The notes beneath the pieces were generated by a model. That model saw only the letters and a program-made list of their open reading frames with translations. It was not told the DNA's origin and did no database searches. A stretch of DNA of 64,000 bases from Microbulbifer guangxiensis. Its GTDB lineage: Bacteria; Pseudomonadota; Gammaproteobacteria; Pseudomonadales; Cellvibrionaceae. The DNA is taken from contig NZ_JAJSAQ010000004.1 of the NCBI RefSeq assembly GCF_021729075.1, positions 248,001 to 312,000 of the forward strand. The letters run 5' to 3'. Below, in pieces: positions 36,505 through 55,654 of this stretch. How positions within the stretch are numbered: the first letter of the stretch is position 1; each line of letters starts with the position of its first letter. The translations under genes were made by a program, and so were the position numbers.

Positions 36505-36597
36505 ACCGGCCAGGGCGGCAGACGACCAACAGGCCCCGCAGGACTTTACCGGCCGCCTTGACAGGCCCGGCAACGGGCAACATAGTAGCCACACCAT

Positions 36598-36619
36598 TTG
36601 TATATACAGGCATATACAA
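36598..36619 (+). promoter_or_regulatory. HutC-type operator
   Basis: Inverted repeat TTGTATAT / ATATACAA around 6 bases, 27 bases upstream of the chosen hutC start. TTGTATATAC half-sites are characteristic of HutC repressors. Likely autoregulation and, given the divergent layout, possibly control of hutI too. Confidence 0.8.
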
Positions 36620-36645
36620 CCAAGATTGAGACTCTACAGAAGTCC

Positions 36646-37440: not shown

Positions 37441-37450
37441 CCCCATTCAT

Positions 37451-37532
37451 CGTCGTCCCGGCGCAGACCGGGATCCAGTGCCAGACTCTGGCGCAGGGGT
37501 TTCTGGATTCCGGGCGCGTCCCGGAATGACGG
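37451..37532. repeat. Inverted pair of palindromic repeats between hutC and hutU
   Basis: Left unit 37451-37478 reads CGTCGTCCCGGCGC and ends GGGATCCAG; right unit 37503-37532 begins CTGGATTCCGGG and ends GGAATGACGG, its inverted counterpart. A short GCCAGA/TCTGGC hairpin lies between them. Confidence 0.8.
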
Positions 37533-37562
37533 AGTTTTTACAAGATATTTGGCGAGGACAAC

Positions 37563-39239: not shown

Positions 39240-39264
39240 TTGGCGATACAGCCATTGCTTATGT

Positions 39265-39357
39265 CGTCATCCCGGACCCGATCCGGGATCCAGAGAAAGT
39301 GCCAGAGGAACATCTGGCACTTTGATGCTGGTAACCGGCCTGCGCCGGCGTGATAGG
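39265..39357. repeat. Composite repeat between hutU and hutH
   Basis: Left palindromic unit 39265-39293 (CGTCATCCCGGA...GGGATCCAG), a central perfect 11-bp hairpin AAAGTGCCAGA / TCTGGCACTTT (39297-39324), and an inverted right unit 39328-39357 containing CCGGC-CTGC-GCCGG. The three-part layout resembles BIME-type elements. Confidence 0.8.
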
Positions 39358-39390
39358 AAACCAAAGAATTTATTTTCGGTGAAAAAGTTT

Positions 39391-40941
39391 ATGTACAAAC
39401 TGGAAATCAACCCCGGCCAGCTGGGCCTGGCAGAACTCCGCCGCGTGGCACGCGAGCCGGTGCAGCTTTCCCTGAAGAAAGATGCCTACCCGGCCATCGA
39501 AGCCTCGGCAAAAACCGTTGCCCAGGTACTGAGTGAAGGTCGCACCGTCTACGGCATCAATACCGGTTTCGGTCTGCTGGCCAATACCCGTATCGAGAAG
39601 AATGACCTGGAAAATCTGCAGCGCGCCATCGTCCTGTCCCATGCGGCAGGGACCGGTAATTTCATGGATGAGGCCACCGTGCGCCTGCTGATGGTGCTCA
39701 AGATCAACTCCCTCGCCCGGGGCTTTTCCGGCGTGCGCCCGCAGGTGATCGAAGCGCTGATGCAGCTTGTCAACGCGGAGGTATTCCCGGCAATTCCGGA
39801 AAAGGGCTCCGTCGGTGCCTCAGGCGACCTGGCACCGCTGGCGCACATGAGCGTGGTGCTGCTGGGCGAGGGCGAGGTATTCATCAACGGCGAGCGCAAG
39901 CCCGCCAGCGACGGCCTGAAAAAAGCGGGCCTCGAGCCAATCGTACTGGCCCCCAAGGAAGGCCTTGCGCTGCTCAACGGTACCCAGGCCTCCACTGCAT
40001 TTGCCCTGCTGGGGCTCTTTGCCGCCGAGGATCTGTTTGCCGGCGGCATTGTCACCGGCGCCCTGACCCTGGAGGCCGCCAAGGGCTCCCGGCGGCCGTT
40101 TGACGACCGCATCCACGCGGTGCGCGGCCAGAAAGCCCAGCGCGAAGTGGCGGCGAGTTTCCGCGACCTGCTGGGTGACAGCAGCCAGATCGGGGAGTCA
40201 CACCAGTTCTGCGAGAAGGTGCAGGACCCTTACTCCCTGCGCTGCCAGCCCCAGGTGATGGGTGCCTGCCTGCAGCAGATCCGCTTCGCCGCCGAGGTCC
40301 TGCTGGCAGAGGCCAACGGTGTATCCGACAACCCGCTGGTTTTTACCGACGAAGAAAACCCGGAGAATTCCGACATCATCTCCGGCGGCAACTTTCATGC
40401 GGAACCGGTCGCCATGGTGGCCGACAACCTGGCACTGGCAATCGCAGAGATCGGCTCACTGTCCGAACGGCGCATGGCGCTGCTGATCGACACCAACCTA
40501 TCCGGTCTGCCGCCCTTCCTGGTGGAAAACGGCGGGGTCAATTCCGGCTTCATGATCGCCCAGGTCACCTCCGCCGCGCTGGCGAGTGAGAACAAGTCCC
40601 TGGCACACCCGGCCAGCGTGGACTCGCTGCCCACCAGTGCCAACCAGGAGGACCATGTCTCCATGGCCACCTTTGCCGGCCGCCGCCTGCGCGACATGGC
40701 TGACAATACCAGCGGCATACTGGCGGTCGAGCTGCTAGCCGCCTGCCAGGGCCTGGATTTCCGAGCACCGCTGAAGACCACCGGAAAACTGGAGAAAGCA
40801 AAAGCAGAATTACGGAAACGGGTTTCCTTCTACGACAAGGACCGCTACTTCGCCCCGGATATCGAGCAGGCAAAGCAGCTGCTGGCCAGCGCGGTATATC
40901 GCGAACTTCTCACCACTGAACTTCTTCCTAGCGCTGACTGA
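39391..40941 (+). CDS. hutH: Histidine ammonia-lyase (histidase)
   Basis: First enzyme of histidine degradation, releasing ammonia to give urocanate. 516 residues from the ATG at 39391 ([20 protein letters not shown]); the frame is open upstream into repeat DNA. The MIO prosthetic group forms from Ala-Ser-Gly in [16 protein letters not shown]; other landmarks are [17 protein letters not shown] and the [15 protein letters not shown] segment. Last gene of hutC-U-H. No histidine transporter gene is in the locus. Confidence 0.97.
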
Positions 40942-41442: not shown

Positions 41443-41535
41443 GGTAGCGATACCTCGATACGAACCCTGGCGAGCGACACCCCGGTGCCGCAGGGAATGC
41501 CGTGATCCGAGGAGAGACCAACCGGAGACAACGTC

Positions 41536-41853
41536 ATGAACAGAACTCTCAAAACCGGGCTGATCGCTGTTACGGTCTGCACCGCACTGACCCTGGGCGC
41601 CTGCGCCTCGGACGGCTATTACTCGGGCGGGAGCTATTACTCCAGCTACCCCTATTACTATCCGTCCAGCAGCGTGCACCTGTACTACTCTTCGCCCCGC
41701 TACTATCGTTACCGGCACCATCCGCGGTATCGTCACTACTATCGCCACCACCACTACCGCGGTCACCGCCATTACCGTGGCCATCACCGGTATCATGGCC
41801 GTCCGCACTACAACCGCCCCCATCACGGTGGTGCGCACCGTCCGCGGCGCTGA
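41536..41853 (+). CDS. Small Tyr/His/Arg-rich lipoprotein, copy 2
   Basis: 105 residues. Signal peptide with lipobox LTLGAC, then SDGYYSGGSYYSSYPYYYP and a C-terminal half made almost entirely of His, Tyr, Arg and Gly in a loose repeat (HYRGHRHYRGHHRYHGRPHY). Shares its layout with the protein 94 bases upstream, so they probably arose by duplication or serve a joint role. Extreme composition rules out a folded enzyme. No homologous family known to me. Confidence 0.7.
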   Translation: MNRTLKTGLIAVTVCTALTLGACASDGYYSGGSYYSSYPYYYPSSSVHLYYSSPRYYRYRHHPRYRHYYRHHHYRGHRHYRGHHRYHGRPHYNRPHHGGAHRPRR

Positions 41854-41877
41854 TGCCTCGGGGTGAGCTCACAGCTT

Positions 41878-41921
41878 CATACCTTGGTCATACAGACCAC
41901 GCCCCCCACCGCTGCTACGAT
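41878..41921 (+). promoter_or_regulatory. Predicted activator box and -10 element before the bdhA-like gene (box A)
   Basis: CATACCTTGGTC at 41878-41889, with near-dyad ACC-TT-GGT. A -10-like hexamer TACGAT starts at 41916, exactly 31.5 bp from the dyad centre. The same geometry recurs at 47343-47388 and 53369-53412. Confidence 0.6.
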
Positions 41922-41995
41922 TTTGAAAAAATGAGCAGGAAGGCTCCGTGCCACAGGCGCGGGGTCTTTGATGAAAGCAGCCGCGGGGGGTGCAA

Positions 41996-42784
41996 GTGCA
42001 GCGCAATTCAGATCAACCCATCCTGGTAACCGGATCCACAAGCGGTATCGGTCTTGCCATTGCCCGGCGCATGGCCGAGGCCGGATATCCAGTCATGCTG
42101 CACGGCCTCGCCACGGCGAGCGAAGGTGCGGCGCTCATCGAAGAGTTCCAGCAGCGCTACGGGATTTTCTGTGGTTTCAGCAGTGCCGATATCAGCAGCG
42201 ATGAGGGCTGTGCCCAGCTGGTAGCCGATAGCCGCGAGGCATTGGGGCACCCGGCCGCACTGGTCAACAATGCCGGCGTGCAGTTCACTGCCCCGGCCCA
42301 TGAATTCCCCAGCGAGCAGTGGCAGCGTATCCTGTCCATCAACCTGAGTTCCGCGTTCTACCTGAGCAAGGAGCTGCTGCCGAACATGCGCGAGAGCGGC
42401 TGGGGCAGGATCATCAATATTTCTTCCGTGCACGGCCTGGTGGCTTCAGAACACAAGGCTGCCTACTGTGCCGCCAAGCACGGCCTGATCGGCCTGACCA
42501 AGGTACTGGCACTGGAAAATGCCGACTACGGTGTCACCGTCAATGCCATCTGTCCCGGCTGGGTGGAGACACCGCTGATCCAGCCACAGATCGAGCGCAT
42601 CGCACAGGAAGAATCCATCGACCTGGAACAGGCCCAGAAACGCCTGATCGGGGCCAAGCAGCCAATCGCGAAAGCGACCAAGCCCGATGCCATCGGTTCA
42701 CTGGTGCATTACCTGTGTGGTGAGCATGCGACCACCATTACCGGCGCCTCCCTGCCGGTAGACGGAGGCTGGAGCGCGCAGTAG
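41996..42784 (+). CDS. bdhA: 3-Hydroxybutyrate dehydrogenase-like short-chain dehydrogenase
   Basis: SDR of 262 residues, closest in pattern to D-beta-hydroxybutyrate dehydrogenase, which oxidises 3-hydroxybutyrate to acetoacetate with NAD. Cofactor motif PILVTGSTSGIGLAIARRMA, NNAGVQ, catalytic Ser in NISSVHGLVAS, YCAAKHG with Tyr and Lys, and NAICPGWVETPLIQPQIE typical of BdhA. GTG at 41996 fits the GGGGGG ribosome site best; a GTG two codons earlier is possible. Preceded by box A and followed closely by the response regulator gene, so both probably share that promoter. Another short hydroxyacid could be the true substrate. Confidence 0.82.
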   Translation: MQRNSDQPILVTGSTSGIGLAIARRMAEAGYPVMLHGLATASEGAALIEEFQQRYGIFCGFSSADISSDEGCAQLVADSREALGHPAALVNNAGVQFTAPAHEFPSEQWQRILSINLSSAFYLSKELLPNMRESGWGRIINISSVHGLVASEHKAAYCAAKHGLIGLTKVLALENADYGVTVNAICPGWVETPLIQPQIERIAQEESIDLEQAQKRLIGAKQPIAKATKPDAIGSLVHYLCGEHATTITGASLPVDGGWSAQ

Positions 42785-42836
42785 CATGAGCGGATGCCGG
42801 CACAGTCGGCATCCATTCATCACCCAGAAGCGCGCT

Positions 42837-43457
42837 GTGAACTACAAACTGCTGATTGCCGACGACCATCCTCTCTACCGCGAGGCGCTCGCCACTACGG
42901 TGAGTGCCAAGCTGCCGGATTGCGATCTCCTGCAGAGTGAAGACCTCGCCTCCACCCTTTCCCGACTCGATGAGCATGAAATCGACCTGCTGCTACTGGA
43001 CCTGAATATGCCCGGCAGCGAGGGCTTCAACGGGCTGGCACAGATTCGCAACGGTTTCCCGATGGTGCCGGTGGTGGTGGTCTCCGGTAGCGACAAGAAC
43101 AGCGTGATCCGCCAGGCCGCCGGCTTCGGCGCCAGCGGATTTCTCTCCAAGACCGCCCGCCCGGAAGAAATCATCGACTGCATCCAGCGCGTCCTCGACG
43201 GCGAGGAATATTTCAGCGCGGAGGCGCTGGAGGAAGAGGCAGGGAGTGAGCTGGCCGATCGCCTGTCACGGCTGACGCCGCAGCAACTGCGCATCTTCCA
43301 GATGATTGCCCAGGGCCTGCTGAACAAGCAGATCGCTTTCGAGCTGGACATCACCGAGCCCACGGTCAAGAGTCATGTCACCGCGATCCTGCGCAAGCTG
43401 GAGCTCCGTGACCGCAAGCAGCTGATCCGCGAGGCCCAGGTGCTGACCCAGCTTTGA
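42837..43457 (+). CDS. LuxR/NarL-family response regulator (CrbR/ErdR-like)
   Basis: 206-residue transcription regulator. Receiver domain begins at once from the GTG at 42837 (NYKLLIADDHPLYREALATT), phospho-accepting Asp in LLLLDLNMPGSEG, Thr/Ser and Lys conserved (VVVVSGSDKN, GFLSKTARPEEII). HTH of the LuxR type: LSRLTPQQLRIFQMIAQGLL, NKQIAFELDITEPTVKSHVT. An ATG 17 codons upstream is in frame but would add a tail before the receiver. Such regulators pair with SSS-domain hybrid kinases, and one is encoded 6 kb away. It is the best candidate to bind the repeated box. Confidence 0.85.
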   Translation: MNYKLLIADDHPLYREALATTVSAKLPDCDLLQSEDLASTLSRLDEHEIDLLLLDLNMPGSEGFNGLAQIRNGFPMVPVVVVSGSDKNSVIRQAAGFGASGFLSKTARPEEIIDCIQRVLDGEEYFSAEALEEEAGSELADRLSRLTPQQLRIFQMIAQGLLNKQIAFELDITEPTVKSHVTAILRKLELRDRKQLIREAQVLTQL

Positions 43458-43464
43458 AGTGACG

Positions 43465-43502
43465 GTAAGCCTGTGCGGATATTAATATCCGCACAGGCTT
43501 AC
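43465..43502. terminator. 38-bp perfect palindrome between convergent genes
   Basis: 19-bp arms with no spacer; each arm begins GTAAGCCTGTGCGG. It stands 7 bases after the regulator stop and 25 before the stop of the opposing hotdog gene, so a two-way terminator is most likely, though no T run follows. Confidence 0.6.
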
Positions 43503-43527
43503 TGCTGAAGTACCCTAGACCCGCCTT

Positions 43528-43908
43528 TCAGCACTGGAACAGCACCAGTGCATCTCCCTCACAGATCAGCCGTCCACCTTCACCGGTGCAGCGGGTTTCC
43601 AGGTTGACCAGCGCCTTATCATCGCGCAGGCGGGTGACGGTGACCGTCGCGGTGAGAGGCTCGTCTACCCTTGCGGGAGCATGGAATTGCATGTGCTGCT
43701 TCAGGTAGTTGGTGCCGTGTCCGGGTAACTCCTCACCCAGCAGGTAGGAAAACAGCCCGGCGATCAGGGGTTCAGGCACTTCCGGCCAGTCGCCCTCGAT
43801 ATGCGCCAGCTGGCACCACTCCCGCAGGGCCTGCCGGTCAAAACTGCGTGTCACGGACGCACGGTCGTCGAGGCGCAGGGCATCGAAACGGGGCAGGTTC
43901 TTGTTCAT
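43528..43908 (-). CDS. Single-hotdog MaoC-like protein lacking the hydratase dyad
   Basis: 126 residues of hotdog fold. The usual MaoC catalytic segment (Asp, Asn-Pro, His) is replaced by WCQLAHIEGDWPEVPEPLIA, while the hotdog core HGTNYLKQHMQFHAPARVDE and TRLRDDKALVNLETRC is kept. It overlaps the next upstream gene by four bases (ATGA), so the two are made together, suggesting a heteromer in which this subunit supplies structure or substrate binding. Last gene of the TetR-crotonase-ligase-MaoC operon. Confidence 0.78.
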   Translation of the reverse strand: MNKNLPRFDALRLDDRASVTRSFDRQALREWCQLAHIEGDWPEVPEPLIAGLFSYLLGEELPGHGTNYLKQHMQFHAPARVDEPLTATVTVTRLRDDKALVNLETRCTGEGGRLICEGDALVLFQC

Positions 43909-44324
43909 CGCGGCAACTCCTCAGCAAGCGCTACACAACAGCGGCCATCCAGGCACAACCGCTCCTGCTGGGTAATCTGTGTCACCAGTTCCACGCGACC
44001 CGACTGTCCCGCCTCGACCAGAAGGGTGACCGTGATCGGCTGATCGGTATAGGTGGGCGCCGGGAACTTGAGGTCCTGGCTTTGCAGCCTTGCGCCCGGA
44101 TAATACGCCTCGATCATGCCCCGCAGCACGGTAAACAACAGCATGCCGTGGGAGACAGTGGCTCCGAAGCGGGTACCTGCAGCGTATTCCGGATCCACAT
44201 GGATGGGGTTGTGGTCCCCGCTCAGGCGGGCAAAGCGGTTGAAGTCTTCCTGGGTCAGGACAAACTCCCGCTGCATTTTTTGCAGGGTCTGCCCCGGCTG
44301 CGCCTCAGTTTCTGGCTGCGTCAT
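43905..44324 (-). CDS. MaoC-like enoyl-CoA hydratase, catalytic subunit
   Basis: 139-residue single-hotdog hydratase adding water to a trans-2-enoyl-CoA, giving the (R)-3-hydroxyacyl-CoA. Active-site Asp and His lie in FARLSGDHNPIHVDPEYAAG; TVSHGMLLFTVLRGM follows as in PhaJ-type enzymes. Overlaps the ligase gene by 20 bases and the partner hotdog gene by 4. Paired single-hotdog MaoC subunits recall the ChsH1-ChsH2 arrangement of steroid side-chain degradation, where bulky acyl-CoAs need the enlarged pocket; that comparison is inference. Confidence 0.85.
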   Translation of the reverse strand: MTQPETEAQPGQTLQKMQREFVLTQEDFNRFARLSGDHNPIHVDPEYAAGTRFGATVSHGMLLFTVLRGMIEAYYPGARLQSQDLKFPAPTYTDQPITVTLLVEAGQSGRVELVTQITQQERLCLDGRCCVALAEELPR

Positions 44325-45831
44325 CGCGTAACTCCTGTTTGATCACTTTGCCCAGGGCATTGCGTGGCAGGGCGGCCAGCACCTGGAATGCCTTGGGCAC
44401 CTTGTAGCCTGCCAGGCGCGCCCGGCAGAACGCCCGAAGCTCATCTTCTTCCGGTGCGGGCACACCGGGTTTCAGGCCGAAGTAAGCCTTGCCGACTTCA
44501 CCCCAGCGCTCGTCGGGCATGCCGACTACTGCGACCTCGGCAATGGCTGGGTGCTGTTCCAGCACCTGCTCTACCTCGGCCGGATAAACATTCTCACCGC
44601 CAGAGATGTACATGTCCTTCCAGCGGTCGACGATGTAGTAGCAGCCATCCTCGTCACAGCGGGCCACGTCACCGCTGTGCAGCCAGCCATCGACCCGGAT
44701 CGCTTCCGCAGTGGCATCCGGTCGGTTCCAGTAACCGGGCGTGACATTCGGGCCGCGGATCAGCAACTCGCCCGGTTCGCCATCGGCAACATCGTTTCCA
44801 TTGCGGTCGACGATGCGCACCTCGGTGAGCAACTGCGGGCGACCCACGGAGCCAACCTTGTCGAGCACCAGCTCCTCATCGAGCAGAAATACCGTAGGAC
44901 CGGTTTCTGTCATGCCCATACCGGTGCGGATGCGAATGCCCGCATCGGCATAGCGTTTTGCAACGGGCAGCGACAACGGCGCACCGCCACAGCCCCAGGA
45001 GCGCACGCGCTTGAGCCTCTCGCCGTCGAATTCAGGGTGATCCAGTAGCGCCTGGTACACGGCCGGTACACCGAAAAAGATGGTTGCCCGGTCCTGTAGC
45101 ACCTGCAGGGCCTGGTCCGGATTGAAGCTGCGCGATACCAGCACGCAGCCACCCACCAGCAACACCGCAGACGAATACAGGTTGATGCCCGCGGTATGGA
45201 ACAGGGGAAGCACGTTCAACAGCACATCATCGCTGGTCAGGTTGACTGCGAGGCCGACGTTCAGGTGATTCGCCAGCATCATGCGGAACGTCTGGATGAC
45301 CCCCTTCGGGCGTCCGGTGGTGCCAGAGGTGTAAAGCAGGTACCAGGGCGTGTCCGGGCTCTTTTCTGCGTGCGGCCTGAGGTCCGGCGTGCTGGCGGCA
45401 AGATCCTGGTGGTAATCGCGCTGCCCCGCAGCGGCACCGTCGAGGGCCACCAGGGTCATTGTGTCCCAGCGGTTGCCCAGACGGGCCGCCACCTCGGCGA
45501 ATTCGCCACCGAAGATCAACGCACGGGGATCACAGTCATCCAGCAACACTTCCAGCTCCGGCTCCGCCAAGCGCCAGTTAAGCGGCACCAGGATCAGACC
45601 GGCCTTGGCACAGCCGAACAGCATGGCGAAAAATTCCGCGCGGCTGTGGCCAAGGTAGGCGAGCCGGTCGCCATCCTGCAGGCCCCAGTGCTCGCGCGCG
45701 GCTGCCGCCAGGCGTGACGCGCGCTCGTTCAGTTGGCGGTAGTCATAGCATTCACCGCTGTCGAGGTCCTCGAGTGCCGGCAGATCCGGCGTTACCCGCG
45801 CGCGCTGCGCGAGCAGGTCGAACATTTCCAT
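44305..45831 (-). CDS. AMP-dependent acyl-CoA ligase
   Basis: 508-residue adenylate-forming enzyme that activates a carboxylic acid with ATP and CoA. Phosphate loop YLLYTSGTTGRPKGVIQT, adenine region GMGMTETGPTVFLLDEE, hinge GWLHSGDVARCDEDGCYYIV, and the C-terminal catalytic lysine in PRNALGKVIKQELRDD. The acid is not identifiable; overall pattern fits medium-chain, aromatic or terpenoid acid ligases. Its stop overlaps the MaoC start and the crotonase gene lies 60 bases upstream. Confidence 0.92.
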   Translation of the reverse strand: MEMFDLLAQRARVTPDLPALEDLDSGECYDYRQLNERASRLAAAAREHWGLQDGDRLAYLGHSRAEFFAMLFGCAKAGLILVPLNWRLAEPELEVLLDDCDPRALIFGGEFAEVAARLGNRWDTMTLVALDGAAAGQRDYHQDLAASTPDLRPHAEKSPDTPWYLLYTSGTTGRPKGVIQTFRMMLANHLNVGLAVNLTSDDVLLNVLPLFHTAGINLYSSAVLLVGGCVLVSRSFNPDQALQVLQDRATIFFGVPAVYQALLDHPEFDGERLKRVRSWGCGGAPLSLPVAKRYADAGIRIRTGMGMTETGPTVFLLDEELVLDKVGSVGRPQLLTEVRIVDRNGNDVADGEPGELLIRGPNVTPGYWNRPDATAEAIRVDGWLHSGDVARCDEDGCYYIVDRWKDMYISGGENVYPAEVEQVLEQHPAIAEVAVVGMPDERWGEVGKAYFGLKPGVPAPEEDELRAFCRARLAGYKVPKAFQVLAALPRNALGKVIKQELRDDAARN

Positions 45832-45892
45832 GGGAGTCTCCGTTATTGTTATCTACCCGGGGATCGTGGCCACCACGGCAACCGGGCAATGA

Positions 45893-46663
45893 TTACTGTT
45901 TAGCGCGACCGAGAAAGGCTGCCATGCCACGGTCTGCTTCCTCACTGTCGATCAATTCCAGAAAGTGTCGCCGTTCGACCTCCAGCGCCGCGGCCACCCG
46001 ATTCACATCGGGACGCGTCAGGGCCAGCGTGTTGCGGACGCTGACGCGCTTTGCGTCACGCACCTGACGCGCCAGTCTGACGGCCCTGGCCGACACATCG
46101 CCGTCCTCCTCCAGGTACTGAACCAATCCCAGTTGCAGGGCTTCCACGGCCTCGATATGGCGATTGGTAAGCTGCACATCCAGCGCGCGACCGCGACCGA
46201 TGCGCTCCGGCATCAGCGCCGTCCAGCCACCATCCGGACTGAAACCAACGGCGGTGTACCAGGGGGCGAAATGGGTGTTGGGGCCGGCCACAGCAATGTC
46301 ACAGGCCAGTACCAGCCCGACCGATCCACCGGTAACCATGCCGTGTACCGCTGCCACGGTCGCGACTGGCAGGCGCAGCAGGTCGAGCATCGCCTCGTTG
46401 AGCGCGCCCACAAGCCGCGTGGCGTAGGCGCGCCGCTCTCCCCGGGCCACCTCGTAAAAAGCAGCGACATCACCACCACTGGAAAAGGAGCGACCCTCCG
46501 CGCGGAGCACCAGCGCCGCCGGATTGTCCTGCCGGCAACGGGCCAGTGCCTCGCGCAGCTCATCCAGCAGCGGCTGCACCAGGGCATTGTGGCGCTCGGG
46601 ACGATTGAGCGTGATGGTGGCTATCCCATCCTCCAGCTCATAGAGCACGTTTGCGGTCTTCAC
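45893..46663 (-). CDS. Enoyl-CoA hydratase/isomerase-family protein, isomerase-like
   Basis: 256-residue crotonase. Oxyanion segments LVLRAEGRSFSSGGDVAAF and VHGMVTGGSVGLVLACDIAV are in place, but neither of the two glutamates of true hydratases is present: the first position is Gly (GGSVGL) and the second Trp (FAPWYTAVG). Instead an Asp occurs in GFSPDGGWTALMPERIG, as in PaaG-type isomerases. I therefore favour a double-bond isomerase or other reaction over hydration. It overlaps the tetR stop-start by four bases. Confidence 0.85.
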   Translation of the reverse strand: MKTANVLYELEDGIATITLNRPERHNALVQPLLDELREALARCRQDNPAALVLRAEGRSFSSGGDVAAFYEVARGERRAYATRLVGALNEAMLDLLRLPVATVAAVHGMVTGGSVGLVLACDIAVAGPNTHFAPWYTAVGFSPDGGWTALMPERIGRGRALDVQLTNRHIEAVEALQLGLVQYLEEDGDVSARAVRLARQVRDAKRVSVRNTLALTRPDVNRVAAALEVERRHFLELIDSEEADRGMAAFLGRAKQ

Positions 46664-47304
46664 CGGTTTTCCCTGCCGCCGCCAGAGGCCAGTCCATTGC
46701 GCAACAGGTCGGAAACCGTCGCCACGATCTCATCAAAGCGGGCTTCCTTTTCCCACAGGGCATAACGAAGACCGAGGAAGTTCGAAATCCCCATCAGGGC
46801 CCAGACCCGCACCTCATCGTTACCCGGGCGGATTTCGCCCCTGTCCGTGGCCCCGGCCAGCATCCGGATATAACGTTCGCCAAAAGACTCGTAGTAATGG
46901 CGGTAAATGGACTCATCGACAAACTGCGCTTCCTGCAGCACGCGATACAGTGCGGGGTTGTCGCACAGATACTGGAGGAAAGCGCGCAAACCCAGCTCCT
47001 CTGCCTCCAGCCGATCCCGTGCACCGGCAGTTTCCTGCTCGAGGTGCGCGCGCAAGCGGCGCCCCATCTCCTGCACCAGTTCGCGCAGGGTCTCCTCCTT
47101 GCTGGCGAAGTAGGTGTAAAAGGTCCCGGAAGCGACACCGGCAGCCCGGGTGATGTCGGCTATGCCCGCGCGGTGATAACCAAGTGTGCCGAACGTCTCC
47201 TCCGCCGCCTTGAGAATACGGGCGCGGGTCCGCTCGCCACGGGCGGTCTTGGGCACACCAGGGCCGCTACCGGCGACTGCGGGAATGGAGACGGCATCCG
47301 TCAT
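46660..47304 (-). CDS. TetR/AcrR-family repressor
   Basis: 214 residues. N-terminal helix-turn-helix ARILKAAEETFGTLGYHRAG, then IADITRAAGVASGTFYTYFA with the family's Y-F-x-S/K recognition end. The C-terminal half is all-helical ligand-binding. First gene of the operon that continues into crotonase, ligase and the two MaoC proteins. A perfect 7-bp inverted repeat lies 50 bases upstream between the activator box and the -10 element, the expected place for autorepression; an acyl-CoA is the likely inducer. Confidence 0.9.
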   Translation of the reverse strand: MTDAVSIPAVAGSGPGVPKTARGERTRARILKAAEETFGTLGYHRAGIADITRAAGVASGTFYTYFASKEETLRELVQEMGRRLRAHLEQETAGARDRLEAEELGLRAFLQYLCDNPALYRVLQEAQFVDESIYRHYYESFGERYIRMLAGATDRGEIRPGNDEVRVWALMGISNFLGLRYALWEKEARFDEIVATVSDLLRNGLASGGGRENR

Positions 47305-47342
47305 GGTGCTCTGCTCTCTTTATGAAACCTGAATCAGTATTC

Positions 47343-47388
47343 ATGTTACGGAAAGTTTCAGTCGCTGAAACTCATACCTTGGTCATAG
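47343..47388 (-). promoter_or_regulatory. Promoter of the tetR-crotonase-ligase-MaoC operon: TetR operator inside an activator box/-10 pair (box B)
   Basis: Core ACCTTGGT at 47376-47383 (reverse facing), -10-like TAACAT on the minus strand at 47348-47343, again 31.5 bp from the box centre. Between them a perfect dyad GTTTCAG-TCG-CTGAAAC (47355-47371) covers where the -35 would lie. Confidence 0.65.
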
Positions 47389-47494
47389 CCCGCCGAGACC
47401 TGAAGCGCGACCAGAAGCCCTGGAGTGAAGAACCGGCGGCGAGAAAGAGGGGGCGAAGGAGGGAGAACAGGGAGAGAGAAAGGGAGCTACAGAA

Positions 47495-47522
47495 GCCACC
47501 GGCGATGGGTGTCGCCGGTGGC
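47495..47522 (-). terminator. Terminator of the MFS-esterase operon
   Basis: Minus strand: perfect 11-bp stem GCCACCGGCGA / TCGCCGGTGGC with a 6-base loop, then a long pyrimidine tract, about 15 bases after the esterase stop. Confidence 0.7.
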
Positions 47523-47536
47523 AAAACGGCCGACAA

Positions 47537-48484
47537 TTAATCCGTTAGGCCGCGCACGAACTCCGCGGTATGGCGATAGAAGCGCTCACAGTCCGCCGCC
47601 ACCATGGATTCCAGGTTCAGGAACGCGTGGATCTGCTGGTCGAAATGGAGCAGCTCAGCGGCCACCCCGGCTTCTTTCAGCTTGTCCACGTAGGCGAAGC
47701 CCTCGTCCCGCAGCGGGCAGAATTCCGCCGTGACCATCAGGGTCCTGGGCAGATTGGCCGTGAACTCGGCGTATAGCGGCGAGCAGGCGCGGCGGTTCTC
47801 GACGCCCTGGAAATAATTATTGAAGTACCAGCCGATCTTTTCCTTTTCCAGCAAATAGCCGCGACCATTCTCGTCGATGGACGGCAGCTGCATGGTGTAG
47901 TCGAGACTCGGGTATACCAGAACCTGCGCGACAATATTGTGGCGCTCGTGCTGCAGCAGCGTACTGGCACTCGCACACAGAGCGCCACCACCGGAGTCCC
48001 CCATCAGGATCCAGCGGTCGCCGTGCTCGATGCCCTTGCGATCCAGTGCCGGGCCGATACCGCGGACCACGGTCAACAGGTCTTCCAGGCCGGCGGGATA
48101 GGGGTTTTCCGGGGCCAGCCGGTAGTCCACCGAAATGACCGTGCGCTTGCAGTGCTGCGCGATACGGCGGCAAATCGGGTCGTACACGGACACGCTGCCG
48201 GCCATATGGCCGCCGCCATGGGCATAGATGATCGCCGGACCGCCATCATTCTCCTCCGGGCGATAGATACGCACCGGCACGGCATAGCGGGGGCCGGGCA
48301 CAGTGGTATCCACTGCCGGCATTTCCGGACCCGCCTCGACAAAGCCCCGGGTCAGATTGGCGAGACTTTCACGGGCATTGGTGGGGGTCGGCTCAAAGCC
48401 GGCGGCCTTCAGCTTTGCCACCACCTCATTGATCGTTTCCAGCCACTGGGCCAGTGCCGGATCAAGCTGTCGCGCTTTCTGCAT
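47537..48484 (-). CDS. Alpha/beta hydrolase, hormone-sensitive-lipase family esterase
   Basis: 315-residue cytoplasmic carboxylesterase with no signal peptide. Oxyanion motif AIIYAHGGGHMAGSVSVYDP, nucleophile Ser in ILMGDSGGGALCAS, acid Asp in EFCPLRDEGFAYVDKL and His in DQQIHAFLNLE complete the triad. Family members favour short-chain or bulky esters. Its start overlaps the stop of the MFS carrier gene by 23 bases, so it probably cleaves what that carrier brings in. Confidence 0.9.
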   Translation of the reverse strand: MQKARQLDPALAQWLETINEVVAKLKAAGFEPTPTNARESLANLTRGFVEAGPEMPAVDTTVPGPRYAVPVRIYRPEENDGGPAIIYAHGGGHMAGSVSVYDPICRRIAQHCKRTVISVDYRLAPENPYPAGLEDLLTVVRGIGPALDRKGIEHGDRWILMGDSGGGALCASASTLLQHERHNIVAQVLVYPSLDYTMQLPSIDENGRGYLLEKEKIGWYFNNYFQGVENRRACSPLYAEFTANLPRTLMVTAEFCPLRDEGFAYVDKLKEAGVAAELLHFDQQIHAFLNLESMVAADCERFYRHTAEFVRGLTD

Positions 48485-49679
48485 TATCCGATTCCTCTTT
48501 TACATCGCTCGCAGGCTTTTTGCCGCTCTCTGGCAGCATGAAGGAAAACACAAACAGGGAGGCGGAACAGGCCACGGCGATGTAGGCCGCAATCGCCGGC
48601 TCACCGGTCATGTCCGCCATCAGACCCGCCCCATACATCAGCACGGTTTCGACACCGTAGGAAATGGACCAGAACATGGCAAAGGTCACCGTGATGCGAC
48701 CGGGGGTCATGCCCGGCAGCTCCTGCGGCAGCGTCACCAGCGCAGTCATGGGCAGGAACATGAAGAAGCCGGCAAGAGCCGCCGCGGCATAGGCGATGAC
48801 CGGGTTGCGGCTCAGCACCATCAGTGCCGCGAAGATCACCAGCGCCAGGCCCGCATAACGCAGCACCGGCAGGCGCAGCGGATAGCGGCGTGTAATCATG
48901 ATACCGGCCACAGTGCCCACCATGCCGGCAGCAATCATCACAGCTGACAGGTGGTTACTGGCCACTGCAAAACCATCGATCAGCGGAAACAGGGCAAACA
49001 CAGCGATGTAGCAGAACAGCACACCGCAGTAGGCGAGCGGCAGCCACCAGTTGAAACCTTCACGAATACCCTCGCGCAGGCCGTATTTTTCTTCCGGCTG
49101 GCCCTTGTTGGCTGCACCGGACAGGGAGAAGTCCTCGGCCGAGAGCCACCAGAGCACTGCCAGGGCCACCACCATCACGCCATAGAGCGCCACCACGGAC
49201 TGCCAGCTGCCCATCCAGGCGGCCAGCGCTCCGGTGGAGAGCAGCGCGATCAGGTTACCGGTATTGAAGGCTGCGGCATTGACTCCGTTGATCAGCGGGC
49301 GCTCTTCCGCGGCGAAGTAGTGCAGCACCACCGGGTTGAAGTAGACGATCGCCAGCGCACCGCCGAGCCCCAGGGCCAGGCGCGACCAGAGCCAGCCGAT
49401 GTAATCACCGGCCAGCGCACCCAGGCCGCCGGCCGCAATCAGCAGCACGGCGATGGTAAAGGCCCGCTTCACGCCGAGGCGCACCAGCAGCATGGCGGCA
49501 GCCAGGTTGCCGACAATCTTGGCGATAGTGATGACGTTACTGCCCCAGGTGGCATTGGCAAGACCGGCCTCACCAAAGGAGGCCTGCACGCTGGGGGTCA
49601 GGATGGCACCGGATACCCAGGACGCCGCGAACAGCGCGTAGGCGGTGAACATCAGGATTTCGAGGACATATTTCTTCAT
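48462..49679 (-). CDS. Major facilitator superfamily transporter
   Basis: 405 residues with twelve predicted membrane helices, from MKKYVLEILMFTAYALFAAS to the FVFSFMLPES end. The intracellular loop VRLGVKRAFTIAVLL stands where MFS proteins carry the Gly-x-x-x-Asp-Arg/Lys motif. Family resembles anion or organic-acid carriers; no closer assignment. GGAAG precedes the ATG. Co-transcribed with the esterase; 83 bases separate it from the hybrid kinase gene upstream on the same strand, and I saw no copy of the activator box in that gap. Confidence 0.88.
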   Translation of the reverse strand: MKKYVLEILMFTAYALFAASWVSGAILTPSVQASFGEAGLANATWGSNVITIAKIVGNLAAAMLLVRLGVKRAFTIAVLLIAAGGLGALAGDYIGWLWSRLALGLGGALAIVYFNPVVLHYFAAEERPLINGVNAAAFNTGNLIALLSTGALAAWMGSWQSVVALYGVMVVALAVLWWLSAEDFSLSGAANKGQPEEKYGLREGIREGFNWWLPLAYCGVLFCYIAVFALFPLIDGFAVASNHLSAVMIAAGMVGTVAGIMITRRYPLRLPVLRYAGLALVIFAALMVLSRNPVIAYAAAALAGFFMFLPMTALVTLPQELPGMTPGRITVTFAMFWSISYGVETVLMYGAGLMADMTGEPAIAAYIAVACSASLFVFSFMLPESGKKPASDVKEESDNAESATA

Positions 49680-49762
49680 AGCGACTTCCAGAAGGCTGCG
49701 CCCGGCTTACTGTTCCGGGCATTCTTATTAAACGTCACACTAACCAGAGCGGGATCACTGCC

Positions 49763-52700
49763 CTATACGACCTTGGTCGCAGGGTCACGGCGTCCGCTCT
49801 TCTGCTGCGCCTGCAGCAGCGCCCGCAGGGCACCCGGGCGCAGCGGTTTCTGCAGGAATTGCCAACCGGCGCGCTGGGCGCGGTTCTTTACCAGGTCGGT
49901 GTTTTCCGCCGAGATGATCACACAGGGCACGGTCGCACCCCACCGCGCCATCAGCTCCCGCGCCAGGGCAATACCGTCGATACTGTTGCCCAGGTGAAAG
50001 TCCATCAGCAGCAGATCCGGCTGCTCCAGCTCCAGCGCAGACTCCCGGTTCGGGGCGCTCGCGACCTGGCAACCCCACCCTCCCAGTAACGCTTCCATCG
50101 CCTCCAGGATCGCCGGCTCGTTGTCGACGCAGGCAACGCGCAGACTCAGGGAGGACCTCGCCGGCTGCAGCTGGGCGGGCGCAGGCACTCGGCGGGCCAG
50201 CGGCCGGGAACGGGGCAGGCGCACGCGGAACACACTGCCGCGACCGGTACGGGAAGTAAGGCTGATGGGCGACTGCAGCAGGCGACACAGACGCTCCACG
50301 GTGGCGAGTCCCAGTCCGTAACCGTGCTCCCGCTGCACCTCCTGACCGGGACTGTCGAGGCGGCAGAACTCGCGGAAAATATCCTGCTGGAGGGACTCAT
50401 CGATACCGCACCCGGTATCCCAGACCTCCAGCGAGACCCGGTCCCCGCGCCCGCGGGCGACCAGCAGCACCCCACCACTGCGGGTGTATTTGACTGCGTT
50501 GTCGAGCAGGTTCTGCACCACCCGGCGCAGCATCTTTTCATCGCTGTGTACCCACAGGTCGGTGGGGCGGTAGCGTAATTCAATCCCCTTGGCTTCCGCG
50601 GCCAGGCGGGCCTGGGCCACCGCATTGTCCAGTACCGGCTCCAGTGCCATGGCCTGCATCTGCGGATGGATATCACCCGCGTCCATACGCGCGATCTGCA
50701 GCATATCGGTAATCAGCTGTTCCGCCGCGGCCAGGGCGCTGTCGGCGCGGGTCAGCAGGCGGGCGCTGTCGCTGTCGAGCTGGCGCGCACTGAGCGCATC
50801 GAGGAACAGGCGACTGGCGTTCAGGGGCTGTACCAGGTCGTGACTGGCGGCGGCGAGGAAGCGGGTCTTGCCGGCACTGGCGGCGTGGAGCTCGCTGTTC
50901 AGGGCCTGCAGCTCACCGGTCCGTGCCGCCACTTTCTGCTCCAGCGAATCCCGCACTTCCGTCAATTCAGCCAGCGCGCGCTGGTAGTCCGAAACGTCGG
51001 TGTAAGTGGTTACAAACCCGCCGCCCGGCAACGGATTGCCGCGGATTTCCAGCACCGTGCCGTCCGTACGGTGACGCTGGACCCGGTAGGCGGTGCCGGC
51101 GCGAAGGTGTTCCACCCGTTTCTGCACGTGCATCTCCACCGCCCCGGGGCCGCACTCACCGCGGCTGGCGTTATAGCGCACCAGCTCTGCCACTGGCTGG
51201 CCGACGTAGATCATCGAGCCGGGGTAGTTGAACAGCTCTACATAGCGCCGGTTCCAGGCCACCAGGTTGAGGTTGGCATCGACCACGGAGATGCCCTGGT
51301 CGATATTGTCGATGCTGCTCTGCAGCAGGCCGCGACCAAACTGGTAGATGGCACTGGCCTGCTCCAGCGTCTGCGGGCTGACCTCGGCGCTGTTGTGCTG
51401 CCGCACCAGTCGCCGCGCACTCGTGGACCCGACGATACCGGCGAGGATCTTCTCCACCGCATCCCGGTAATCCTCTGCCGAGGCACTCTTGCGGTCGCCA
51501 CTCTCGGCGGCAATTCCGGCAAAGGTCCGCTCTGCCGCATCGCGACCGACAAAGCGCGCCAGCAGTTCACGCAGGCGGACCTTGTTGACCGGGGTCTCCG
51601 CGGCCTTGCGGCCCTGTGGCTGCCAGCGATGCAGCAACAGCGAAACGGAGACCAGCAGCAGGCTGTTCAGGCCCAGGCCGAACAGCGTGGTAATGGAGAG
51701 GGCACTCCACTCCAGCCCCAGGGTCCGCGCAATCAGATCCGGGTTACCGACCGCTGCCGGCAGCGCTGACAGGCTCCAGATCGCAGCGCCGGCTGCCAGG
51801 CCGGTCATCACACCCGCTGCACGCAGGCGGGGCCAGCGGGCCGGCCACCAGGCCGCAGCGATCATTGCCGGGGCCAGCTGGCCCACCAGGGCCAGTGACA
51901 GCAGCCCGAAGGTACCCAGTCGCACCCCGGCCCCGATCCCCTCATTAACCGCAAAAGCAGCCAGCATGATCAGGGCGATGATCACCCGCCGCACCCGGCG
52001 CAGGTCCGTGCCCAGTACCTGCCCGACAGGACGCGCCTGCAGGCGCTGCAGCCACCAGGGCACCACCATGGTATTGGCGATCATGGTGGACAGGGCGATG
52101 GTGGCGATGATGACCATACTGGAGCCGGCGGAAAGGCCACCGACAAAGGCCAGCAGAGCCAGCGCCGTGGAGCCGCTCTCCAGAGGCAGGCCCAGCACAA
52201 AGCGCTCCGGGTTGCTGTAGCTGTCCGGCAGCCACAGCAGCCCACCATAGCCGACGATCAGGATCGCCACCGACAGGACACCCAGGTACAGCGGGATCAG
52301 CTTGCGCACCGGGCCAACATCCTGCTCGCCGTCACTTTCGATCATCAGGATATGGAACTGGCGCGGCAGGCAGAACATGGCTGCCATACCCAGCACCACC
52401 ACGGCCAGGAAGCCGGTATCTGCCGGACGGGATTCCGCCAGTGCGCGGACCTTGTCGCTCTCCAGACCAGAGCGCATCAGGTCGGTCGCGCCATCAAAGG
52501 CGCCGGCCATCACAAACCAGGCCACGGCCACGAAAGCCCCGATCTTCACCAGCGCCTCGAAGGCCACGGCCAGCAACATGCCGTTGCGATGCACACTGCT
52601 GTCGATATGCCGGGTACCAAACAGCAGCGCAAACAGACCGAGTGTCGCACTGACGATTGCCGTCACCAGCACCGGGCTGATATCGCCACTCCCCCCCAGC

Positions 52701-53128
52701 AACAGGAAACTGTCGGCTACCGCCCGCAACTGCAGGGCCAGGTAGGGCAGCACCGCCACCAGGGCGAGCACGGCCACTGCCGCCGCCAGCCACTGGGAAC
52801 CGCCGAACTGGGCCGAGATGAAATCCGCAATGGAAGTGGAGCCCTGCTGTTTGCTCATCCGCACAAAGCGGGCCAGGAGCGGGGCCCCGAAGATCAGCAT
52901 GAGGCTGGCACCGACGAAGGTGGGCGGCAGAATCCAGCCCTCCTCGACCGCCTGAGCCGGTGTGCCGAAGAACATCCAGGCACTGGTATAGGTGCCGGCC
53001 AGGGCCAGCATCAGCGGCTTGATGGGGCGCAGACGGTGCGCCGGCATGCGGTCGCCCCAGAAGGCGATGGCAAACAGCAACAGCAGATAGGCCAGTGCCA
53101 CTGCGGCCAGGGTAGTCAGGCTGAACAA
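49763..53128 (-). CDS. Hybrid sensor: SSS-family transporter domain, PAS, histidine kinase and receiver (CrbS/MxtR-like)
   Basis: 1121-residue membrane sensor. Roughly 1-500: sodium/solute symporter domain with about thirteen helices. Roughly 600-700: PAS (SSIDNIDQGISVVDANLNLV). Then a coiled linker, dimerisation-phosphotransfer His in FLAAASHDLVQPLNASRLF, ATPase domain with VQNLLDNAVKYTRSGG, VWDTGCGIDES and GYGLGLATVERL, and a C-terminal receiver with Asp in DLLLMDFHLGNS. Start is TTG at 53128, within the first helix and with GAGAAGA upstream; no later start would keep that helix. Relatives with LuxR-type partners (CrbS-CrbR, MxtR-ErdR) govern acetate and related carbon use. Here it lies among catabolic genes. 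Confidence 0.92.
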   Translation of the reverse strand: MFSLTTLAAVALAYLLLLFAIAFWGDRMPAHRLRPIKPLMLALAGTYTSAWMFFGTPAQAVEEGWILPPTFVGASLMLIFGAPLLARFVRMSKQQGSTSIADFISAQFGGSQWLAAAVAVLALVAVLPYLALQLRAVADSFLLLGGSGDISPVLVTAIVSATLGLFALLFGTRHIDSSVHRNGMLLAVAFEALVKIGAFVAVAWFVMAGAFDGATDLMRSGLESDKVRALAESRPADTGFLAVVVLGMAAMFCLPRQFHILMIESDGEQDVGPVRKLIPLYLGVLSVAILIVGYGGLLWLPDSYSNPERFVLGLPLESGSTALALLAFVGGLSAGSSMVIIATIALSTMIANTMVVPWWLQRLQARPVGQVLGTDLRRVRRVIIALIMLAAFAVNEGIGAGVRLGTFGLLSLALVGQLAPAMIAAAWWPARWPRLRAAGVMTGLAAGAAIWSLSALPAAVGNPDLIARTLGLEWSALSITTLFGLGLNSLLLVSVSLLLHRWQPQGRKAAETPVNKVRLRELLARFVGRDAAERTFAGIAAESGDRKSASAEDYRDAVEKILAGIVGSTSARRLVRQHNSAEVSPQTLEQASAIYQFGRGLLQSSIDNIDQGISVVDANLNLVAWNRRYVELFNYPGSMIYVGQPVAELVRYNASRGECGPGAVEMHVQKRVEHLRAGTAYRVQRHRTDGTVLEIRGNPLPGGGFVTTYTDVSDYQRALAELTEVRDSLEQKVAARTGELQALNSELHAASAGKTRFLAAASHDLVQPLNASRLFLDALSARQLDSDSARLLTRADSALAAAEQLITDMLQIARMDAGDIHPQMQAMALEPVLDNAVAQARLAAEAKGIELRYRPTDLWVHSDEKMLRRVVQNLLDNAVKYTRSGGVLLVARGRGDRVSLEVWDTGCGIDESLQQDIFREFCRLDSPGQEVQREHGYGLGLATVERLCRLLQSPISLTSRTGRGSVFRVRLPRSRPLARRVPAPAQLQPARSSLSLRVACVDNEPAILEAMEALLGGWGCQVASAPNRESALELEQPDLLLMDFHLGNSIDGIALARELMARWGATVPCVIISAENTDLVKNRAQRAGWQFLQKPLRPGALRALLQAQQKSGRRDPATKVV

Positions 53129-53368
53129 ACGCGTCTTCTCTCAGTTTTTGTTATTTGGCGCCAGCTATCCCCGGAGAGCATTCTGGCGCCAACTGACAAG
53201 CGCTGACCCATGACAGGATGGGCTTGTGCCAGTTATTCTTGCTGTAGATTTTTCCGCCAACCCGTGAATCGAGCGGGCGCATTGGTCAAAGAACAGGCGG
53301 AGCAATCTCGAAACCGAACCTTACCCTACTGGCTGTTTTTTGTCCTCCCCGGGACCACAGCCAGCCGT

Positions 53369-53412
53369 CATACCTTGGTCTAACAGGCAACTAGACCGGG
53401 AGCGGATACAGT
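53369..53412 (+). promoter_or_regulatory. Predicted activator box and -10 element before the second TonB receptor (box C)
   Basis: CATACCTTGGTC at 53369-53380 and TACAGT from 53407, with the same 31.5-bp centre-to-hexamer distance as boxes A and B. The whole kinase-receptor gap (53129-53467) has no gene. Confidence 0.6.
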
Positions 53413-53467
53413 GGCTATCCGCAAGATTTATAACAACCATAAATATTGGTGAATGGAGAGAGTCGCA

Positions 53468-55654
53468 ATGAGAGCAATAAAGTTTCATCCCATCGCCGCC
53501 GGCGTCATGCTTGCCTGCGGTGCCAGCTTTACCTATGCCGAGCCCGCCCTGGAAGAGGTGACCGTTACCGCGCAGAAGCGTGAACAGTCAATGCAGGAAG
53601 TTCCGGTGGCCGTTACTGCAATCAGCGAGGACCAGCTGCTGCAAGCTGGCGTCAGCGACCTGACTGACGTCCAGAAGCTGTCCCCCAACACCACGCTGCA
53701 GGCGAGCCGCGGCACCAACTCCACCCTGACGGCGTTTATCCGCGGCATCGGCCAGCAGGACCCGCTGTGGGGCTTTGAGCCGGGTGTTGGTATCTACGTG
53801 GACGACGTCTACATTGCACGCCCGCAGGGTGCGGTTCTGGATATTCTCGACGTAGAGCGCGTGGAAGTGCTGCGCGGCCCGCAGGGTACCCTCTATGGTA
53901 AGAACACCATCGGCGGTGCCGTGAAGTACGTCACCAAGAAGATGTCCGGCGACACCCGTGTCTCTATCTCCGGCGCCGTGGGCAGCTACAGCCAGACCGA
54001 CCTGAAAGTGGCCGGCTCCACCGAAATCGCTGATGGCGTATACCTGGGTGGTGCCATCGCCAGCTTCCAGCGCGATGGCTACGGCGAAAACGTCATCACC
54101 GGTGACGAGCAGTACAACAAAGATATCGTCAGCGCCCGTGTCGCCCTGGAATTCAACCCGAGCGATGCTCTCTGGGTGCGCGTAGCGGCAGACCAGACCA
54201 CTGACAAGTCTGCGCCCAAGCACGGCTATCGCCTCGCTCCGGGACTCGGCGGTGAGCCGGTACTGGACAGCGTCTACGACACCGAATCCAACATGCTGTA
54301 CGACAACCTGGTAGAGACCAGCGGCGCGTCCCTGACTGCAGAGTATGAGCTCAGCGACAGCGTTACCCTGAAGTCCACCACCGCGTTCCGTCAGGGCGAA
54401 ACGCAGACCGCGATTGACTTTGACAGCGTCAACCGTCCCGACTTCGACGTACCCGCTTTCTACGAAGATGACCAGACTACCCAGGAATTCCAGCTGATCT
54501 GGGAAGGCGATAACGCAGACCTGGTCAGCGGCGTCTACTACTACACCGGCACCGCAGCTGGTTCCTTTGATGCAGTACTGGGTTATCTCACCAACGTCAT
54601 CGGCATCCCGCTGACACAGAATGTGGCCGGTTCCGTGGATACCACCAGCCTGTCGGCCTATGCCCACTACAACTGGCAGTTCGCCCCGGACTGGAACCTG
54701 AGCCTCGGCGGCCGCTACACCAAGGATGAGAAAGACGCCGATGTATTCAAGGCGAACTATCTCAGCCTGTACAGCCCCACCTTCCAGGACAAGTACTACC
54801 CCGAAGGGGCTGACCCGATCCTGCTCGGCGTGCTGACCGACTACGAGAACAGTGATTCCTGGGGCGAATTCACACCGCATATCGGCATTGATCACCAGAT
54901 CAACGATGATGTGATGGTCTACGCCGGTTACAGCGCAGGCTTCAAGAGCGGCGGCTTCGATATGCGCGGCGATGCCAGCCAGCTGCCTTCCACAGTAGAC
55001 GGCTTCGATCCGGAAACCGTGGACACCTACGAGTTCGGTGTGAAGTCCGACCTGTTCAACAACCGCCTGCGCCTGAACGCGGCCGCCTTCCGTGCCGACT
55101 ACAAGGACATGCAGGTGACCGTACAGGAATTTGTTGAGGGCGGTGGCTTCGCCAGTGCCGTGCTGAACGCCGGTGAATCCCGCATTCAGGGTATCGAGCT
55201 GGAAGCCACGCTGGCGATGACCGACAACCTGATGGCCAACCTGGCCCTGGGTTACGCCGATACCGAGTTCCTGGAATTCATCTCTGGTGGCGTGGACGTA
55301 TCCGACCAGCGTGATCTGCAGAACACGCCGGATACCACCGCCATGTTCCAGCTGAACTACTCCCTGCCGATGCAGAGCGGTGCTGAGGTCGTGATCAACC
55401 CGACCATCTCCTACCGTGCCGACACCCAGATCTTCGAGGTGCCGAACCCCGTCCTCGACCAGGAGGCCTACACGCTGGTGGACATGACTGCCACCTACTA
55501 CAGCGCGGACGGCAAATGGCAGGCGGGCCTGGTGGGCAAGAACCTGACTGACAAGGAATACCGCATCGCTGGCTATGCCTTCGGTGGCGCCTTCGACACA
55601 GGCTTCTACGGCGCTCCGCGCACCATCGCCCTCACCGGCAACTACAACTTCTAA
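53468..55654 (+). CDS. TonB-dependent outer-membrane receptor
   Basis: 728 residues from the ATG at 53468 (MRAIKFHPIAAGVMLACGAS), with GGAGAGAG upstream; an ATG five codons earlier is less likely. After the signal peptide, TonB-box-like ALEEVTVTAQKREQSMQEVP, plug with AFIRGIGQQDPLWGFEPGVG and VEVLRGPQGTLYGKNTIGGA, then the barrel ending LTGNYNF with a terminal Phe. The AQKREQSMQEVPVAV plug start marks the group abundant in sphingomonads and marine degraders of aromatic, steroid-like or terpenoid compounds. Position beside the hybrid kinase and box C ties it to the same regulon. Confidence 0.92.
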   Translation: MRAIKFHPIAAGVMLACGASFTYAEPALEEVTVTAQKREQSMQEVPVAVTAISEDQLLQAGVSDLTDVQKLSPNTTLQASRGTNSTLTAFIRGIGQQDPLWGFEPGVGIYVDDVYIARPQGAVLDILDVERVEVLRGPQGTLYGKNTIGGAVKYVTKKMSGDTRVSISGAVGSYSQTDLKVAGSTEIADGVYLGGAIASFQRDGYGENVITGDEQYNKDIVSARVALEFNPSDALWVRVAADQTTDKSAPKHGYRLAPGLGGEPVLDSVYDTESNMLYDNLVETSGASLTAEYELSDSVTLKSTTAFRQGETQTAIDFDSVNRPDFDVPAFYEDDQTTQEFQLIWEGDNADLVSGVYYYTGTAAGSFDAVLGYLTNVIGIPLTQNVAGSVDTTSLSAYAHYNWQFAPDWNLSLGGRYTKDEKDADVFKANYLSLYSPTFQDKYYPEGADPILLGVLTDYENSDSWGEFTPHIGIDHQINDDVMVYAGYSAGFKSGGFDMRGDASQLPSTVDGFDPETVDTYEFGVKSDLFNNRLRLNAAAFRADYKDMQVTVQEFVEGGGFASAVLNAGESRIQGIELEATLAMTDNLMANLALGYADTEFLEFISGGVDVSDQRDLQNTPDTTAMFQLNYSLPMQSGAEVVINPTISYRADTQIFEVPNPVLDQEAYTLVDMTATYYSADGKWQAGLVGKNLTDKEYRIAGYAFGGAFDTGFYGAPRTIALTGNYNF

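Follow-up and report, generated by a model that had tools for sequence, protein, structure and literature searches.

Four promoters of one gene cluster of Microbulbifer, a marine bacterium, carry a near-palindromic box whose centre lies 31.5 bp from the first base of a -10-like hexamer. Box and spacing are conserved across the genus, and the response regulator encoded in the cluster belongs to a clade of its own. We consider it probable, at about 0.8, that a local regulon related to 3-hydroxybutyrate is switched on, from a site abutting the -35 region, by a CrbS/R-like system whose box has changed. Specifically, the response regulator (42837-43457), a CrbR/ErdR-like activator of NarL/LuxR type, would bind the box once phosphorylated, with the SLC5-domain hybrid kinase at 49763-53128 as its likely partner in phosphotransfer. 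A regulator dimer on the box, centred at about -43.5 and next to a poor -35, would recruit RNA polymerase at the promoters of the dehydrogenase and regulator genes, the TonB receptor gene, the MFS-esterase genes and the TetR-acyl-CoA operon. The regulator would activate its own operon, i.e. exert positive feedback, while the TetR-acyl-CoA operon would probably also be repressed by its own TetR through the palindrome TGAATnnnnATTCA. Within the CrbS/R group the system would be a branch that uses a changed box of its own.

The boxes and their promoters

Positions refer to the window, i.e. the whole 64 kb stretch of DNA analysed, in which the cluster has the following features.

41877-41892, plus strand: box 1, TCATACCTTGGTCATA, upstream of the SDR-response regulator genes; the 16-mer is unchanged in 25 of 25 distinct SDR promoters (32 loci)
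41893-41898, plus strand: CAGACC, a conserved, poor, putative -35-like element adjoining box 1, 17 bp before the -10; present in 20 of 25 distinct SDR promoters
41916-41921, plus strand: -10-like TACGAT, 31.5 bp from the centre of box 1
41990-42784, plus strand: SDR of the 3-hydroxybutyrate dehydrogenase family (NCBIfam NF009093, 279.5 bits, cut-off 258; TIGR01963, 292.3, below the cut-off of 307.05)
42837-43457, plus strand: NarL/LuxR-type response regulator, REC and GerE (Pfam Response_reg, GerE), ErdR/CrbR-like, in its own clade by the tree
43528-47304, minus strand: optional operon of TetR, enoyl-CoA hydratase-like, acyl-CoA ligase, MaoC-like and thioesterase-like genes
47330-47343, no strand assigned: palindrome TGAATnnnnATTCA, probable TetR operator, over the -10 and the likely start
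47343-47348, minus strand: -10-like TAACAT, 31.5 bp from the centre of box 2
47355-47371, no strand assigned: palindrome GTTTCAGTCGCTGAAAC, between box 2 and the -10; imperfect in other TetR promoters
47372-47387, minus strand: box 2, TATGACCAAGGTATGA, facing TetR
47537-49679, minus strand: MFS transporter and HSL/Abhydrolase_3 esterase
49737-49742, minus strand: -10-like TAGTGT, 31.5 bp from the centre of box 3
49763-53128, minus strand: hybrid histidine kinase with SLC5-fold N-terminus (predicted), PAS, HisKA, HATPase and REC
49766-49781, minus strand (reads 49781-49766): box 3, TGCGACCAAGGTCGTA, newly found, overlapping the last kinase codons (stop 49765-49763) and facing the MFS-esterase genes
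53368-53383, plus strand: box 4, TCATACCTTGGTCTAA, upstream of the TonB receptor gene
53407-53412, plus strand: -10-like TACAGT, 31.5 bp from the centre of box 4
53453-55654, plus strand: TonB-dependent outer-membrane receptor

A preliminary description of this DNA had placed the 12-mer CATACCTTGGTC at 41878, 47373 and 53369, with 31.5 bp separating the dyad centre from the start of a -10-like hexamer in each case. All three copies are found there, and direct counting returns the same distance, from 41884.5 to 41916 for box 1, from 47379.5 to 47348 for box 2 (read on the minus strand) and from 53375.5 to 53407 for box 4. The box and the three promoters are real, but a fourth promoter had been overlooked, as had the box being a variant of a published motif. 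Box 3 came to light when neighbouring genes were compared across loci, as a word conserved where the kinase gene ends; in the two most divergent clusters this word is TCCTACCAAGGTCGAA, with TAGCGT at 31.5. The stretch at 41500-41852, just upstream of box 1, has a strikingly high content of His, Tyr and Arg codons.

With the -10 hexamer taken at -12, the predicted box centre is -43.5. Read from sequence, the site abuts a poor -35 and keeps the -10 at a fixed spacing, the layout of a class II-type activator-dependent promoter. The earlier suggestion that a centre near -43 is the place of an activator is backed by the genus-wide spacing and by the matching position of the mapped CrbR motif of P. 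fluorescens (PMC5715377).

A genome-wide scan finds four exact copies of the 12-mer in the 3.65 Mb genome, three of them in the window; the fourth (C2:547036) has TAnnnT at 31.5 in neither direction. Repetition of the 12-mer is by itself weak evidence, because 27 12-mers occur in the window in at least three copies more than 1 kb apart, compared with 0-9 in 20 dinucleotide shuffles. The 10-base core KACCTTGGTC is not enriched genome-wide either (18 sites vs 33 for the reversed control). It is the spacing that carries evidential weight, because only at 31.5, among 160 offsets tested, is TAnnnT found in all four boxes (two other offsets give 2 and 1). In the window TAnnnT begins at ~0.4% of positions, and four at one shared offset have a chance of ~4e-8 with the 160 offsets counted, the form of the hexamer and the boxes having been chosen post hoc. 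The 18 core sites offer 36 directions, and TAnnnT stands at 31.5 in five: the four gene-facing ones of the window, and one among the 28 that belong to the remaining 14 sites, which falls within a 479-aa ORF. Distal boxes at two further loci (L086 and L087), both inside a long ORF, were set aside as chance.

Conservation across Microbulbifer

The promoters compared across the genus come from clusters retrieved through the regulator or the box, and at least five pairs of loci look like one genome taken twice (identical promoter stretches). Identical promoters were collapsed, giving 25 distinct SDR, 18 TonB, 20 MFS and 6 TetR promoters from 32, 20, 24 and 8 loci, respectively; an incomplete MFS locus (L042) was left out, so that 19 MFS promoters remain. 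Of these 68 distinct promoters, 58 have a spacing of 31.5 and 10 one of 32.5. Specifically, 31.5 is found in 17 of 25 SDR promoters (32.5 in the other 8), in all 18 TonB receptor promoters, in 17 of 19 MFS promoters (32.5 in 2) and in all 6 TetR promoters. The interval between box and hexamer varies except at the -35 place directly after the box, which reads CAGACC in the SDR promoters (20/25) and CAGGCA in the TonB promoters (18/18). The MFS hexamer is CAnnnT, a weak -10, in 13 of 19 promoters, and this counts against our preferred reading. A second inverted box, often degenerate, stands 23-24 bp upstream of the SDR box in four loci (L036, at 9074 and 9098, L037, L041 and L043), and in two of these, L036 and L041, the -10 spacing is 32.5.

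The genes around the boxes were compared in 20 loci from Microbulbifer-titled records; among named records, Microbulbifer flavimaris is the closest relative, with a regulator 92% identical. Upstream of the cluster, at 35063-40941, the window holds genes that look like hutI, hutC, hutU and hutH, and hut-like genes stand upstream of the cluster in 10 of the 20 named loci as well.

The word TCATACCTTGGTC is present in 38 of 48 genus genomes, while its reversed control gives 2 hits overall. The preliminary description had named the LuxR-type regulator and the SSS hybrid kinase as candidates for acting at the box, and this choice gains support from co-occurrence in these related genomes: the regulator (at least 66% identity) and the dehydrogenase are found in the same 36 of the 48, all with the box, a coincidence that is partly built in because the regulator's own operon carries it. 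Among the 12 genomes that lack the regulator, 10 lack the box and two have one copy each. One of these copies (locus L143) has no TAnnnT at 31.5, while the other (L144) keeps a full SDR-type promoter. The latter (genome G023, 8588-8603; same site in L107) lies downstream of hutH, its SDR-type box followed by TAGCAT at 31.5, in a genome without regulator and dehydrogenase; it is perhaps a promoter remnant after loss of the operon.

The TetR operon is optional, as TetR is found in 8 of 32 compared loci (a few loci are incomplete, and some are the same genome twice). The palindrome TGAATnnnnATTCA keeps its offset throughout the 8 TetR loci (6 distinct promoters) and occurs once in the 64 kb window; it is probably the TetR operator, in which case activation and repression would meet at one promoter. 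In the window the operon is placed apart from the SDR gene and has its own box. At L155, apparently the same genome as L040, TetR is divergent from SDR with a single box between them and TAnnnT at 31.5 on both sides.

A 12-mer in three copies is nothing unusual within the window, as expected if the box were a product of chance or a functionless repeated element, but its spacing is fixed and its conservation genus-wide, and this explanation is hardly credible. Could a different protein bind the box, i.e. the cluster TetR, HutC or an unlinked regulator? Box 2 lies just upstream of tetR, and the presumed hut genes are nearby. However, TetR is present in only 8 of the 32 SDR-box loci (a few being incomplete) and has its own conserved palindrome, and 10 of the 20 named loci keep the box with no hut gene in the retrieved flank, which makes another binder improbable. 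The regulator might instead repress from the box, or both repress and activate; this is very improbable, as a box centred at about -43.5 beside a poor -35 is placed where an activator would sit, and the homologue CrbR activates from there (PMC5715377).

The regulator, the kinase and their likely substrate

In NCBIfam the regulator is nearest to ErdR, at 190 bits, below the family cut-off of 390, and the acs-linked Microbulbifer regulators also score below it (three tested, at 244-250 bits). In a tree built from 68 regulators, whose long branches were flagged by the program and whose deeper forks are unsettled, the window-type regulators form one clade (97/94); it lies outside a group (81/87) that includes a second Microbulbifer regulator and ErdR, along with the majority of the order's other ErdR-like regulators. 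The tree took 68 of 82 extracted sequences, with 9 of 23 window-type sequences kept as representatives, and its entries from the order search are the best 30 loci plus 20 chosen others among the matches. Its label 'acsCtx' covers 27 loci, 16 of them with an acyl-CoA ligase-like neighbour in the short flank, and the 3 checked are acetate-CoA ligases. The DNA-binding half is 84-98% identical within the clade (5 others) and 45-55% identical to the related regulators compared.

Pfam recognizes PAS, HisKA, HATPase and REC domains in the kinase and no SSF domain in its N-terminus. We nonetheless assign an SLC5-type domain to this hybrid kinase because its first 600 residues are predicted to adopt an SLC5 transporter fold (mean pLDDT 82.5), with NIS, SGLT2, CHT1 and the sialic acid symporter as top Foldseek matches of the model. 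Helices at 516-579 of the model, at modest confidence, mark a putative STAC region. A second kinase homologue in the genome (C2:419770), which we take from gene order to be CbrA, aligns over residues 2-973 with 25% identity. The kinase N-terminus profile scores 370 bits to the solved chain 10ed, aligned to its positions 12-590; 10ed is the CbrXA SLC5-STAC structure (PMC13022988).

The signal is most likely 3-hydroxybutyrate or a related short acid, as suggested by one enzyme family and by a report that a Microbulbifer strain consumes 3HB and grows better with it (PMC9628828). Acetate, acetoacetate or another short acid may be the ligand instead. An acetoacetate-CoA ligase is also encoded in the genome (976 bits, cut-off 521), and its locus holds no KACCWWGGTM word. 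In five genomes (L100/L145, L146, L147, L105 and L106) a box stands between the citrate synthase gene and sdhCDA-like genes (named by eye), which suits a substrate feeding acetyl-CoA. Toward sdhC this box has a TA-starting hexamer at 31.5 (TATAAA in three, TATAGG and TACAAA), none with the final T, and in the source genome KACCWWGGTM is absent from the 4.2 kb gltA/sdh locus. A box-linked PHB depolymerase found no support: two Esterase_PHB hits (45-46 bits) are both away from the listed KACCTTGGTC sites.

More tentatively, and with a good deal of doubt, the kinase could be a transporter-like sensor dedicated to 3-hydroxybutyrate or its oligomers that split off from an acetate sensor by duplication, regulator and box having changed in step. 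It would then control TonB uptake, MFS transport, esterase hydrolysis and oxidation of PHB degradation products, and its control would extend in some species to the citrate synthase-succinate dehydrogenase region. PHB degraders have been reported in Microbulbifer (PMC9628828), and a sensor and regulon for 3-hydroxybutyrate-type substrates are proposed here for this genus.

Comparison with CrbS/CrbR and other SLC5-kinase systems

In P. fluorescens, activation by CrbR requires the ACTU motif, e.g. TACTACCATCGTCGAAT, an imperfect inverted repeat spanning -52 to -36 relative to the mapped acs start (PMC5715377), and the window boxes, at a predicted -43.5, would share the ACTU position of CrbS/CrbR (MxtR/ErdR) within one base. 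Their core TAC-CTTG-GTC fits the pattern KAC-YWWM-GTC, which we derived from published ACTU sites, save for one letter, an exception shared by the actP site. Core and predicted position agree with ACTU, whereas the flanks differ. Like CrbS/CrbR, the window system has an SLC5-type hybrid kinase, a NarL/LuxR-type regulator and, at about -44, an inverted repeat whose core is KACYWWMGTC-like. Unlike CrbS/CrbR, its regulator has its own clade, and its predicted targets are a 3-hydroxybutyrate dehydrogenase, a TonB receptor and MFS-esterase genes rather than acs and actP.

The second Microbulbifer regulator (43-47% identity) is found in 29 of 48 genomes and is absent from the source genome. In all four loci examined its neighbours are acs (971-981 bits, cut-off 725) and a kinase homologue of SLC5 type, and TTCGACTTATGTCTAAT lies upstream of acs in each, with CAGAAT or CATGAT (CAnnnT) at 31.5. 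The genus has two box types, TACCTTGGTC at the window cluster and TTCGACTTATGTCTAAT at second-regulator acs, and the acs-linked box differs from the window-type TCATACCTTGGTC while the 31.5 bp spacing to the hexamer is common to both. KACCWWGGTM is absent from all four second-regulator loci, and GAC(C/T)nATGTCTAA from all seven window-type clusters checked. Three of the four second-system acs promoters (L137, L138 and L140) have a further ACTU-like site, 32-51 bp upstream of the first, and at L139 such a pair stands before a different ORF. The acs of the source genome has no KACYNNNGTC-type site in 1.5 kb upstream and neither KACCWWGGTM nor GAC(C/T)nATGTCTAA at its locus, and box control of this gene was rejected; the window system may control it indirectly. 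As the acs-linked box differs at the same 31.5 and the acs of the source genome lacks a box, we see one promoter geometry with two DNA addresses.

The match of core and position to the published ACTU motif (PMC5715377), together with homologous regulator and kinase, would also be expected if the box were the ordinary CrbR acetate motif and the cluster merely part of a canonical acetate switch. This is unlikely: the window clade (97/94) lies outside the ErdR-holding group (81/87), albeit in a tree with long branches and unsettled forks, the acs of the second regulator carries another box, and the source genome lacks the second regulator and has an acs without the box. A CrbS/R-like system with a changed box is the reading we retain, and the open PMC literature, judged mainly from titles and abstracts, yielded no description of this Microbulbifer system. 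The genus offers a natural case of two homologous sensor-regulator pairs that share a promoter geometry but differ in DNA address, which makes it possible to test what keeps such pairs apart.

RpuS/RpuR of Sinorhizobium fredii is likewise an SLC5/STAC kinase system with a transport target, but it is described with an imperfect direct repeat between -80 and -43 and the pyruvate symporter gene mctP as target (PMC9100948). CbrA/CbrB also has an SLC5-STAC kinase, and the N-terminus of the window kinase matches the CbrXA chain 10ed; unlike CbrA/CbrB, the window regulator is of NarL/LuxR type. We do not call the system CrbS/R itself because clade, box letters and targets differ, and it is best filed as a variant of the CrbS/R-ACTU kind, distinct from CrbS/R. 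As such, the promoter finding is real and stronger than the preliminary description stated.
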